Virus record (IMG/VR): IMGVR_UViG_3300005613_000202
Location: 1 to 36,505 of that record
DNA length: 36,505 bases
Direction: 5' to 3' (one strand)
Source: a virus
The notes below the pieces were generated by a model, which saw only the letters and a list, made by a program, of their open reading frames with translations, was not told the DNA's origin and ran no database searches. Each line of letters starts with the position of its first letter. The first letter of the stretch is position 1. Both the position numbers and the translations under genes were made by a program. Positions 3,482 through 33,905 of this stretch are shown in pieces.

Positions 3482-3875
3482 GGTTTTTTTATTATTTATA
3501 ATCATTCTAAATAATTATGTAAAACCGTAAAAAAGTAAAAACTTGTAAAAACTTGAGGTGTTTTTTAACTTGTTGATTTACAATGTTTTAGTGAAAGTTG
3601 TTTTTTAGTAAGTGTTTGATTAATAACGTTTTAATGGAAATGTTAAAACTTTTTTACCTATATTGCTCTATAACAAAATATTTTTTTTTCAAAAAACACG
3701 AAATATTTTTACCTTTTCATTACTTTCTATGATTATCAATAAGTTAGACCGTAAAAACTTGTTAAACTTTTTACATCAAGTTTATACCTTTTTTACGTTT
3801 TGACTGTTTTTATTTAGAATCAATATAAATAACGATATTTTTTAATTAAAGTATTTTAAATATAAAATAATGTAG
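3482..3875. other. Gene-free AT-rich region with iteron-like repeats; candidate replication origin
   Basis: No plausible gene lies here. The motif GTAAAAACTTG occurs at 3535-3545, 3545-3555 and 3751-3761. An inverted near-copy, CAAGTTTATAC, lies at 3777-3787. The shorter core CGTAAAAAA/GGTAAAAA recurs at 3527-3534, and inverted at 3650-3658, 3706-3713 and 3789-3797. The region lies between divergent operons for recombination and replication, next to a primase/helicase gene. Iteron origin and operator array are both possible. Confidence 0.5.
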
Positions 3876-3883
3876 TATATTTG
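3876..3883 (+). promoter_or_regulatory. Rightward promoter -7 element (replication operon)
   Basis: TATATTTG matches the Bacteroidota -7 element. No clear TTG is found 19-21 bp upstream, so it may need an activator, or the AT-rich upstream repeats may compensate. Transcription would begin close to 3889, which is the first base of the structured leader. Confidence 0.55.
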
Positions 3884-3888
3884 TAAAA

Positions 3889-3972
3889 GGAACGGTCAAT
3901 TCCATATAAAGAAATTATTGTAAAATCCTTATTAAAAATGCTGTTTGACCGTGGCTTTTTAATAGGGATTTT
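3889..3972 (+). ncRNA. Structured 5' leader RNA with two hairpins and complementary loops
   Basis: Hairpin I is GGAA (3889-3892) / TTCC (3900-3903) around the 7-base loop CGGTCAA (3893-3899). Hairpin II is a 17-bp stem, 3922-3938 with 3956-3972, with one G-U pair and two more G-C pairs (3940-3941 / 3954-3955) after a bulged T. Its 12-base loop contains TTGACCG (3945-3951), the exact complement of loop I. A kissing-loop or pseudoknot interaction is therefore possible. Hairpin II has no T-run after it, so it is not a simple terminator. It precedes the endonuclease start by 24 bases. No known RNA family is recognised. Confidence 0.65.
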
Positions 3973-3996
3973 CGTGTTATATAAAAACGGTTAAAT

Positions 3997-4509
3997 ATGA
4001 GTGAAGAAGTTTGGAAAGATATACCTAATTATGAAGGTATATATCAAGTCAGTAATTTAGGAAATGTTAAAAGTTTACCAAGATTAATTATTAATAGTAA
4101 AAATAGTTTTATATCAAAAGAAAGAATATTAAAACCTGGAAAATCAAATAATGGTTATTTATTAGTTGTTTTATGTAATAATTCTAATAGAGAAACAAAA
4201 AAAATTCATCAATTAGTAGCTATTTGTTTTTTAAATCATAAAACTTGTGGTCTACAATTAGTAGTAGACCATATAAATGATGACAAATTAGATAATAGAG
4301 TTGAAAATTTACAAGTTATCACACAAAGAGAAAATTCACATAAAACTCAAGGTAAATATTCATCTAATTTTAAAGGAGTTTATTTTCACAAGAAATATAA
4401 AAAATTTTCTGCAAGTATATATATACATGGAAAAAATAATCATTTAGGTTATTTTAATACAGAACAAGAAGCAAATGAAATATATAAATTAAAAACTATT
4501 GAAATATGA
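3997..4509 (+). CDS. NUMOD4/HNH homing endonuclease (170 aa)
   Basis: An N-terminal NUMOD4 motif (EVWKDIPNYEGIYQVSNLG, residues 4-22) is followed by an HNH nuclease core. That core includes the LVAICFLNH segment, VVDHINDDKLDNR with the central His/Asn, and NLQVITQRENSHK (about residues 71-115). A C-terminal AP2-like DNA-binding segment follows (FKGVYFHKKYKKFSASI ... GYFNTEQEA). Such free-standing enzymes cut intron-less or endonuclease-less alleles and spread by repair. It lies between the leader RNA and the primase/helicase gene and overlaps the latter by ATGA. No intron halves are visible in the gene downstream. Confidence 0.9.
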   Translation: MSEEVWKDIPNYEGIYQVSNLGNVKSLPRLIINSKNSFISKERILKPGKSNNGYLLVVLCNNSNRETKKIHQLVAICFLNHKTCGLQLVVDHINDDKLDNRVENLQVITQRENSHKTQGKYSSNFKGVYFHKKYKKFSASIYIHGKNNHLGYFNTEQEANEIYKLKTIEI

Positions 4510-5936
4510 ATGATAATAATACACAACCATTCTGGTCTGTAAATCAAAATGGTAAAATTGATTTGAATAATTATCTTTTCAAAAAGTTTCTTGAAGCAAA
4601 TGACTATTTTAAAAATAAACCAAACTCAAACAGTTCATTTAATATAATAAAGAAAAATGATATTTTTTTAGAGATTAAAGATGAAACTGATTTAAAAGAT
4701 TTTATACTTAATTACATAGAAGAAAATGATTTAGGAGTAGGGGTTTATAATTTAATGTCTGGAAATCTTAAATACTTTAAGCGTGATTTTCTGTCAATGA
4801 TTAAATCTAAGGACATAGAGATAATGAAAGATACTAAAGATGATGCTTTCTTTTTTTATAATAATTGCATTGTTAACGTAAAGAAAAATGAAAAGAAAAT
4901 AATTAACTATAAAGATGTAAATATTTCAATATGGAAAGACCAGGTTATTAATAGAGATTTTATTGAAGCAGATCATCATGAAAGTCAGTTTAGGACATTT
5001 ATATGGAAAGTAAGTGGTGAGAATGTTGAACGTTACAATACCATGCAATCGGTTTTAGGTTACTTACTACATTCATATAAGACTAATTCTAATAATAGAG
5101 CTATTATATTTAATGATGAAATGATAAGCGACAACCCTAATGGTAGAAGTGGAAAGGGTTTAATTTGGAACGCACTTAAACAACTTAAAAAAGTTCAATC
5201 ATTAGATGGTAAAACATTTACTTTTAATAAATCTTTTCCTTATCAAAACGTTTCAACTGATTGTCAAATATTAGTATTTGATGATGTTGAGAGAAACTTT
5301 CATTTTGAGAGTCTTTTTTCTGTAATTACTGAGGGTATAAATATAGAGTACAAGGGTAAAGATGCAATAAGATTATCAGTAGAAGAAAGTCCTAAAATAA
5401 TAATAACAACTAACTACACTATTAAGGGTGATGGTGGCTCTCATGATGCTAGAAAGTTTGAGGTTGAAATGTCAACTTTCTTTAATGCAGATTATACTCC
5501 AGAAATGTTTTTTGGTAATAAATTATTTAATGACTGGGACGACAATGAGTGGGCTAGGTTTGATAATTATATGATGGAATGTTTGAAGAAATATTTAAAC
5601 AGTGGATTGGTAAAATCAAATACTAAAAATTTAGAAGTTAGAAAATTAATTGATAAAATAGGTCATGAACTTCATACTTTTATAGAGTCAATAAAAAGGG
5701 ATGAATGGATTAATATAAAAGCTATTTACGATAATTTTTTAGATTCTTATCCTGAGTTAAGAAAATGGTATAAACAAAATAGTTTAACTATTGGTTTAAA
5801 ATCATATTGTAAACATTATAACATTGATTATAAAACATCTACAGCTGGTGGGGTTACAAAGATATTTATTGATAGTGGTAAACAAACAGATTCAGAAGAT
5901 GATATTTGGGATGAAATACAAAAAGGTTTAAAATGA
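4506..5936 (+). CDS. Phage primase/helicase-type ATPase (DUF5906/D5-like, 476 aa)
   Basis: The C-terminal half is an SF3-like AAA+ ATPase: Walker A NGRSGKG (about residue 212), Walker B LVFDDVER (about 256), and a sensor/motif C segment IIITTNYTIKGDGGSHDAR (about 298-316) with a following arginine. The first 170 residues have no clear primase motif. Family members unwind DNA at phage or plasmid origins and often carry primase activity. Position next to the repeat-rich gene-free region supports a role as replication initiator/helicase. It is the largest replication gene here, and no DNA polymerase accompanies it. Confidence 0.85.
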   Translation: MNDNNTQPFWSVNQNGKIDLNNYLFKKFLEANDYFKNKPNSNSSFNIIKKNDIFLEIKDETDLKDFILNYIEENDLGVGVYNLMSGNLKYFKRDFLSMIKSKDIEIMKDTKDDAFFFYNNCIVNVKKNEKKIINYKDVNISIWKDQVINRDFIEADHHESQFRTFIWKVSGENVERYNTMQSVLGYLLHSYKTNSNNRAIIFNDEMISDNPNGRSGKGLIWNALKQLKKVQSLDGKTFTFNKSFPYQNVSTDCQILVFDDVERNFHFESLFSVITEGINIEYKGKDAIRLSVEESPKIIITTNYTIKGDGGSHDARKFEVEMSTFFNADYTPEMFFGNKLFNDWDDNEWARFDNYMMECLKKYLNSGLVKSNTKNLEVRKLIDKIGHELHTFIESIKRDEWINIKAIYDNFLDSYPELRKWYKQNSLTIGLKSYCKHYNIDYKTSTAGGVTKIFIDSGKQTDSEDDIWDEIQKGLK

Positions 5937-24538: not shown

Positions 24539-24565
24539 AGGGGAGCGTTAAAAACTCCCCTTTTT
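24539..24565 (+). terminator. Rho-independent terminator after the capsid gene
   Basis: Stem AGGGGAG (24539-24545) / CTCCCCT (24555-24561), 9-base loop, and Ts to 24565. It lies 13 bases after the capsid stop and 14 bases before the next start. It would boost capsid mRNA relative to downstream genes. Confidence 0.85.
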
Positions 24566-24579
24566 AAACTCATAGAAAA

Positions 24580-25172: not shown

Positions 25173-25201
25173 AAGGGTGTTAATTATAGCACCCTTTTTT
25201 T
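25173..25201 (+). terminator. Rho-independent terminator after the probable tube gene
   Basis: Stem AAGGGTG (25173-25179) / CACCCTT (25190-25196) with a 10-base loop and a T-tract to 25201. The ATG of the next gene begins at 25202, immediately after the last T. Confidence 0.8.
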
Positions 25202-25630
25202 ATGACAACATTATTAGACATAGTTAAGCAAAGCGAGAAAACAAAGAATATTTGGCGTGAAAATTACAATTCTACTGAGTGGAAAAATGCTAATAAGCTA
25301 AACATTCTACTTTACGGAATGTCATTAAATCAAAAGCCTAAATGTTCGTGTTTGGAAGACTTGTTTTTTATGTTGAAATCAAATAATATTAATCAAAAAT
25401 TCAAAGATAAAATGGAGCAAAAATTCAAAATCAAAAAAGGTAAGTTAGTTAGTTCGTTTAAGTTTGGTTTTCATTTAAGTGAGCAGTCGAATGACGAGCA
25501 AATAAAAGAAGCTTTAAAGTTAGACCCTAGCTTAATAGTGTATTTCGATGAGTTTCCCGAAGATTGGAAAGTAATTGTAGGGCTTGAGAAAAAACAACGT
25601 GCAAAAAGAAAGGTAAATGGCAAAGCTTAA
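25202..25630 (+). CDS. Hypothetical protein between tube and portal genes (142 aa)
   Basis: Unrecognised. Helical and lysine-rich, with a CSC pair near residue 49. The C-terminal third holds LDPSLIVYFDEFPEDWKVIV and a very basic tail. Its ATG abuts the T-tract of the upstream terminator, so it has almost no independent leader. It overlaps the portal gene by 14 bases. A tail-assembly or head-tail joining role would fit the position, without direct evidence. Confidence 0.6.
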   Translation: MTTLLDIVKQSEKTKNIWRENYNSTEWKNANKLNILLYGMSLNQKPKCSCLEDLFFMLKSNNINQKFKDKMEQKFKIKKGKLVSSFKFGFHLSEQSNDEQIKEALKLDPSLIVYFDEFPEDWKVIVGLEKKQRAKRKVNGKA

Positions 25631-30869: not shown

Positions 30870-30911
30870 TATATTTACTTATTCATAATTTTTTAGGTGT
30901 TTTAAATGTTT

Positions 30912-30939
30912 AAGGGAGGTGTTAAAGCCTCCCTTTTTT
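30912..30939. terminator. Bidirectional terminator between convergent operons
   Basis: Stem AAGGGAGG (30912-30919) / CCTCCCTT (30928-30935) with a T-tract to 30939 for the rightward transcript. The AA at 30912-30913 gives only a weak T-run on the other strand. It lies between the endolysin and the leftward helicase-methyltransferase gene. Confidence 0.85.
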
Positions 30940-33875: not shown

Positions 33876-33905
33876 CAAATATAACTATTATTTATTAAAT
33901 AACAA
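33876..33905 (-). promoter_or_regulatory. Leftward Bacteroidota-type promoter
   Basis: On the minus strand: TTG (33905-33903), 19-bp spacer, TATATTTG (33883-33876). It lies 26 bp upstream of the 33849 start and directly downstream of the methyltransferase terminator. Confidence 0.8.

Follow-up and report, generated by a model that had tools for sequence, protein, structure and literature searches.

Comparative sequence evidence for an apparently undescribed kissing-hairpin leader RNA in phages of Flavobacterium-like bacteria

A two-hairpin leader upstream of phage replication genes

Does a phage leader RNA with two hairpins whose loops are exactly complementary use that complementarity, and what would such pairing do at the head of a replication operon? 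The question is raised by a 36.5-kb stretch of viral DNA (the window, meaning the whole stretch that was analysed), in which the encoded large terminase has its nearest relatives in Flavobacterium phages (~45% identity). All parts of the leader lie on the plus strand. A Bacteroidota −7 promoter box TATATTTG (TAnnTTTG; 3876–3883) sits 5 nucleotides upstream of hairpin I (GGAA-CGGTCAA-TTCC; 3889–3903), with which the transcript is predicted to begin and whose stem pairs covary among relatives. The loop of hairpin I and its closing A together form the first kissing arm ACGGTCAA (3892–3899), an 8-mer that serves as kissing arm in a second phage as well (L044:1013–1110). A single-stranded, A/U-rich linker (3904–3921) containing the motif AAAGAAATTATT, semi-conserved according to a motif count over 52 linkers, leads to hairpin II (3922–3972), which folds into about 20 bp with a 10-nucleotide loop and ends in GGGATTTT at its 3’ side. 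The second kissing arm TTGACCGT (3945–3952) is the perfect complement of the first, with two unpaired nucleotides on its 5’ side and none on its 3’ side. The sequence is thus as the first-pass annotation had described it, with the complement extending over 8 nucleotides.

Judging from the spacing in relatives, an unstructured translation initiation region (3973–3996) follows and places the ATG at 3997 of a NUMOD4/HNH endonuclease gene (3997–4509; Pfam NUMOD4 6.6e-16, HNH_3 2e-9) 24 nucleotides past hairpin II. The second gene (4506–5936) encodes a replication-type (VirE/D5-like) protein (phrog_28855, 1.6e-96) that presumably acts in replication, given its annotated relatives and context. The earlier picture of a structured 5’-terminal leader heading the replication operon is supported; the usual spacing predicts a transcription start about 1–4 nucleotides ahead of hairpin I, not precisely at its first base.

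The minimum-energy fold contains the long hairpin at 3922–3972 (−21.7 kcal/mol, z = −2.5; 4 of 200 shuffles were equally stable). Two kissing-loop hairpins of equal total stability arose at 0.06 per window in 400 dinucleotide shuffles, and at 0.0025 per window when the promoter was required to be in place. No family reached gathering score in Rfam 15 for the window leader and 13 relatives, and matches at E ≤ 5 were at chance level, in agreement with the first-pass statement that no known RNA family is recognised.

Other promoters of the window phage have plain short leaders of 20–30 nucleotides, among them the recurrent form TTTGTTGAAAYATTTAAAA..ATTATG on the minus strand at 33883, 33160, 3459 and 1808. 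Upstream of the kissing-hairpin leader, the divergent intergenic region at 3511–3766 contains the blocks ACCGTAAAAA and GTAAAAACTTGTAAAA, each in two copies about 220 bp apart, which are possible origin iterons or repressor sites.

Distribution and genomic setting

Searching with the Rep protein yielded 40 loci, whose leaders were compared with that of the window. Almost no sequence was shared with the window leader, yet a descriptor scan that required promoter, hairpin I, hairpin II and complementary loops recovered its plan at many of these loci. The commonest class of element reads TATATTTG-n4-8-GAAGC...GAACTTC; this pattern occurred in 52 stretches among 2.9 million viral contigs, and 51 of the 52 are followed by another hairpin that carries the complement of the first loop. 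The common plan is shared by no fewer than 50 distinct elements, which use at least 23 different kissing sequences and come from uncultivated phages as well as named isolates. In bacterial and archaeal genomes (257 Gb), the commonest-class pattern gave 15 matches in unrelated taxa, approximately the number expected by chance according to our estimate. The covariance model R1, which is weak on divergent members, matched none of 395 Bacteroidota genomes; because of this weakness it may overlook divergent copies or those in prophages, and the element is so far viral.

Since sequences differ though the plan is equal, comparison of the window leader with named phages by DNA similarity gave no match, and plain blastn with class-1 elements likewise offered no route to them. 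Isolates were reached through a neighbouring protein, leading to Cellulophaga phages phi19:1, phi10:1 and Nekkels (Nekkels_1) and Flavobacterium phage morran (morran9-1), and from there to Lillamyvirus and Muminvirus isolates, phages of Flavobacterium sp. LMO6/LMO9 that include lillamy and mumin. Elements are present in all of these, and Olleya phage Harreka (Harreka_1) probably has a copy as well. Model R1 recovered one of the first four isolate elements, and its weak matches in phi4:1, 6H, Leef_1, FCL-2 and P2559S were rejected, as the architecture was not seen there. By DNA similarity about 50 records of cultured phages match, seven of which were read base by base.

The setting of the element is uniform at its borders. 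Of 47 distinct elements, 44 have the −7 box 4–8 nucleotides upstream of hairpin I, and the first start codon follows hairpin II mostly after 13–25 nucleotides within a standard A/U-rich start region. In several isolates (L169, L171, L177, L052 and L179) a conserved AATAGTTATnGGTAATCTTAAAACC stands between hairpin II and the start codon, and the GGT/ACC within this region could form a small third hairpin. The first genes, labelled by similarity and by eye (with Pfam and PHROGs for the window genes only), are mutually unrelated and encode NUMOD4/HNH and GIY-YIG endonucleases, Rep, DnaD-like proteins, helicase-methylases or methylases, and small ORFs. Together with the plain leaders at other promoters, this points to a general cis module heading replication-region transcripts rather than to a gene-specific autoregulator. 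Very often an HNH or GIY-YIG endonuclease gene is directly behind the element (L053, L065, L068, L028, L011, the window and others); such genes may home into the site behind the leader, or may travel with their own promoter and leader.

Hypothetical short ORFs that overlap or abut the element are annotated in several isolate genomes (L171:2619–2762, L178:1359–1478, L180:1468–1563). They are probably spurious gene calls, and their annotation across the element suggests that it has been overlooked. A palindromic Bacteroidetes candidate, HMP_4078, was reported as a structured RNA near phage D5 and integrase domains (Fremin and Bhatt 2021; PMC8040213); the published description is of one palindrome in human microbiomes and mentions no loop-loop helix (PMC8040213). 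No earlier description of the phage leader was found in the openly searchable literature, so that a prior mention elsewhere is possible. The leader, present in many phages of Flavobacterium-like bacteria, is a real and apparently undescribed RNA control element.

Covariation and geometry of the loop-loop helix

If the two loops pair, changes in one should be matched in the other. In an alignment of 24 elements, RNAalifold chose the loop-loop helix unprompted and with compensatory changes. An all-class MAFFT alignment misaligned divergent members, and a class-1 alignment took its place. Pair counts gave 92–96% paired positions for the kissing helix; in alignment A3, for which the fitting model contained no kissing pairs, the value was 95.8%, and 44 cells were double-changed. 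For the structure as a whole, the covariation score was 0.46 compared with 0.16 for shuffled alignments, and none of 500 shuffles reached 0.46, counts that are not probabilities because the sequences count lineages more than once. Sliding the partners by a single column lowered the score to 0.13 or less. In the stem of hairpin II, compensatory changes were likewise seen at 8 of the 9 lower pairs and at all 6 upper ones.

Individual pairs of phages tell the same story. L043 and L047 differ at 4 positions in 82 nucleotides, all four within the kissing arms and all four compensated. Among isolates, the kissing arms of morran (GTGAGAAG), lillamy (GTGAGACG) and mumin (GTGGAACG) differ, with the exact complement present in each. 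Over 51 elements with 23 kissing sequences, complementary runs averaged 7.8 nucleotides between cognate loops and 3.3 between non-cognate ones. Six contigs have two elements each, whose loops differ and whose cross-pairing never exceeds 4 nucleotides. The isolate Flavobacterium phage mumin6-1 has two elements (L178; 499–600 and 1534–1640, with loops GTCGTCG and GTGGAACG), and the one at 499–600 directly precedes a NUMOD4 endonuclease gene. The compensated pairs are direct evidence for a selected loop-loop helix. The covariation analysis of homologous leaders that the first-pass annotation had named as a check came out in favour of the loop-loop contact.

No column of the loops is invariant across the 23 kissing sequences. 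In the linkers, GA[AC]ATT occurs in 18 of 52 as compared with 1.4 in shuffles, an excess that is inflated because the linkers are related.

The dimensions of the parts bear on the kind of contact. Loop II has 10 nucleotides in most members, namely two unpaired 5’ nucleotides and an 8-nucleotide arm followed directly by the 3’ arm of the stem; the 5’ flank is exactly 2 nucleotides in 33 of 56 and the 3’ flank 0 nucleotides in 47 of 56. Loop I usually has 7–8 nucleotides, and the helix between the loops comprises 7–9 bp. Known kissing complexes such as those of ColE1 and the HIV-1 DIS have loops of these dimensions, making a loop-loop contact more likely than a classical pseudoknot, and the loop dimensions and conserved flanks bear out the first-pass preference for the former. 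Linkers are typically 12–18 nucleotides in length, a reach that approximates the length of a coaxial rod (typically ~93 Å available for 84 Å needed, both values being model-dependent). With 6.2 Å assumed per nucleotide and an unbroken rod, the strain estimate requires no pair to be opened in 44 of 55 cases, which counts against the conditional-terminator reading given below.

Possible functions of the kissing leader

Comparative sequence analysis demonstrates a promoter, a 5’-terminal hairpin I, a linker, hairpin II, a loop-loop helix and a standard start region in these leaders; termination, the direction of the effect and any signal are what we infer. In many elements hairpin II has the build of an intrinsic terminator and lies 10–25 nucleotides ahead of the start codon. 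Among 47 elements, 19 have 7–8 T in the 8 nucleotides after hairpin II (12% in shuffles) and 10 more have 6 of 8 T, while the U-tract is weak or absent in the remainder, the window included. The hairpin of the window ends in GGGATTTTCG and thereby differs from clear GC-rich terminators at other sites of this phage, and its GGGATTTT end is weakly terminator-like where many relatives have T7–T8. No U-tract whatever is present at L046 12950, L056 3735 and L044 3669. In one mumin6-1 element, in the leader of an endonuclease gene, the 3’ end reads CTTGGTGG-TTTTTATTTT-ATG. As a separate observation, the structural operon of the window contains clear GC-rich intrinsic terminators and also finishes with one (24544–24569, 25173–25203 and ~30905–30935), and the one at 25173 leads directly into a start codon (TTTTTTTATG).

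At close to an even chance, in our judgement, the element is a cis-acting 5’-leader RNA module of Bacteroidota phages that works as a conditional intrinsic terminator, its outcome being set by kissing of the loops. Such a terminator would decide whether RNA polymerase enters the early/replication operon. Hairpin I would fold first, and since loop II emerges from the polymerase earlier than the 3’ arm of its own stem, the kiss could form ahead of terminator completion. The kissed complex would be a nearly straight rod that the linker is barely long enough to span, so the basal pairs of hairpin II would be hindered or slowed in closing and read-through would be favoured. By contrast, absence or displacement of the kiss would allow hairpin II to close and transcription to stop just upstream of the first gene. 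The leaders show no conserved pocket for a ligand, and any signal that tips the balance would therefore have to come from a protein, from the speed of the polymerase, from temperature or ions, or from an RNA; the lack of any conserved loop nucleotide makes an arrangement without a ligand pocket the best reading. Loops could then drift freely as long as complementarity is kept, and different loops for different elements in one phage would avoid cross-pairing. The fuller proposal, a ligand-free intramolecular kissing switch of termination or polymerase processivity that represents a new leader class with freely evolving, mutually orthogonal loops and a distinct code per copy against cross-talk, is possible though somewhat short of an even chance.

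The closest known architecture is that of the guanidine-IV riboswitch (GGAM-1). That riboswitch and its Gd4v variant likewise consist of two hairpins joined by a loop-loop pseudoknot, and in the riboswitch the 3’ hairpin is a Rho-independent terminator that immediately precedes the start codon (PMC7736828, PMC9788692). Its authors propose that kissing pulls the linker taut and thereby prevents closure of the terminator, with termination controlled by stabilisation of the kissed form (PMC7736828, PMC9788692); the mechanism put forward here for the phage leader has the same mechanics. However, the guanidine-IV loop nucleotides are ~97% conserved and bind guanidine, whereas the phage loops vary with compensation and conserve no such pocket; the riboswitch precedes transporter and similar genes in bacteria of many phyla, whereas the leader precedes replication and endonuclease genes in phages, and guanidine-related genes were absent among the first genes behind the elements. 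Lacking the defining loop nucleotides, the phage leader is not a guanidine-IV riboswitch.

The weak terminator end of the window and the absence of one in some relatives keep two rivals of the conditional terminator in play. In the first, which we regard as unlikely, the kissed hairpins form a compact 5’-terminal cap that stabilises the mRNA against 5’-end-dependent decay (RppH, endonucleases) and leaves the A/U-rich start region open for ribosomes. The spacing between −7 box and hairpin I would place the cap at the transcript end, the translation start region is left intact, shape is conserved rather than sequence, some elements lack a U-tract, and the plain leaders at other promoters of the window phage fit as well. 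However, a stabiliser explains neither the U-tract enrichment nor the loop complementarity, as stable hairpins alone would suffice.

In the second, more doubtful still, the folded leader binds the host polymerase in the manner of a put element, so that terminators in the long downstream operon are ignored; put RNA of HK022 contacts the β’ zinc-binding domain of RNA polymerase and suppresses terminators at a distance. HK022 putL and putR resemble the leader in size (~70–85 nucleotides), in having two stem-loops and in heading early phage operons, putL (~70 nucleotides) directly after the early promoter (PMC9378689). The plus-strand operon of the window, which extends over at least 17 kb, shows no clear promoter in its interior and has terminator-like hairpins further downstream at ~24544 and 25173, would suit such processive antitermination. 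By contrast, cryo-EM of put revealed a V-shape with an RNA triplex and no loop-loop helix (PMC9378689), no sequence that a polymerase surface could read is conserved across classes, and elements also precede lone endonuclease genes that are closely followed by another element (L053, mumin6-1).

The loops of ColE1 RNA I/RNA II and of other antisense copy-control systems are 7–8 nucleotides long and fully complementary, can kiss, and diversify in pairs. The likeness to plasmid copy-control leaders, drawn in the first-pass annotation, would imply that the opposite strand gives rise to an antisense RNA which, by pairing with the loops, restricts how much replication protein is made. Kissing loops, a downstream replication gene and a loop diversification reminiscent of incompatibility groups agree with it. 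However, ColE1 pairing takes place in trans between sense and antisense RNA, whereas both loops here belong to one RNA, and only 3 of 47 elements have an opposite-strand TAnnTTTG within or behind them; the first genes have no relation to each other, and two elements with different loops on each of six contigs are unexpected for a single circuit. An antisense copy-control leader is accordingly disfavoured and, as we see it, very improbable. Even less credible is a DNA-level inverted repeat acting as operator or replication origin with incidental RNA folding, for although CGGTCAA/TTGACCG is also an inverted DNA repeat adjoining replication genes, its halves are always in loops of hairpins with independently covarying stems, no half-site sequence is common to the 23 kissing types, and the order promoter-element-ATG is fixed. 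Two further candidates were set aside, a terminator for the upstream operon because the promoter lies between, and sequestration of the start region because that region stays outside the structure.

Taken together, these results add an RNA element supported by covariation, and absent from Rfam, to the replication-region messages of many Bacteroidota phages. With about 50 records of cultured phages carrying it, the element is testable now, and the natural compensatory series (morran, lillamy and mumin; L043 and L047) represents a ready-made mutational proof of the loop-loop contact. If the terminator reading is true, the leader would be a minimal natural two-hairpin switch with a programmable code, and would offer a useful regulatory part for Bacteroidota, where known RNA parts are few.
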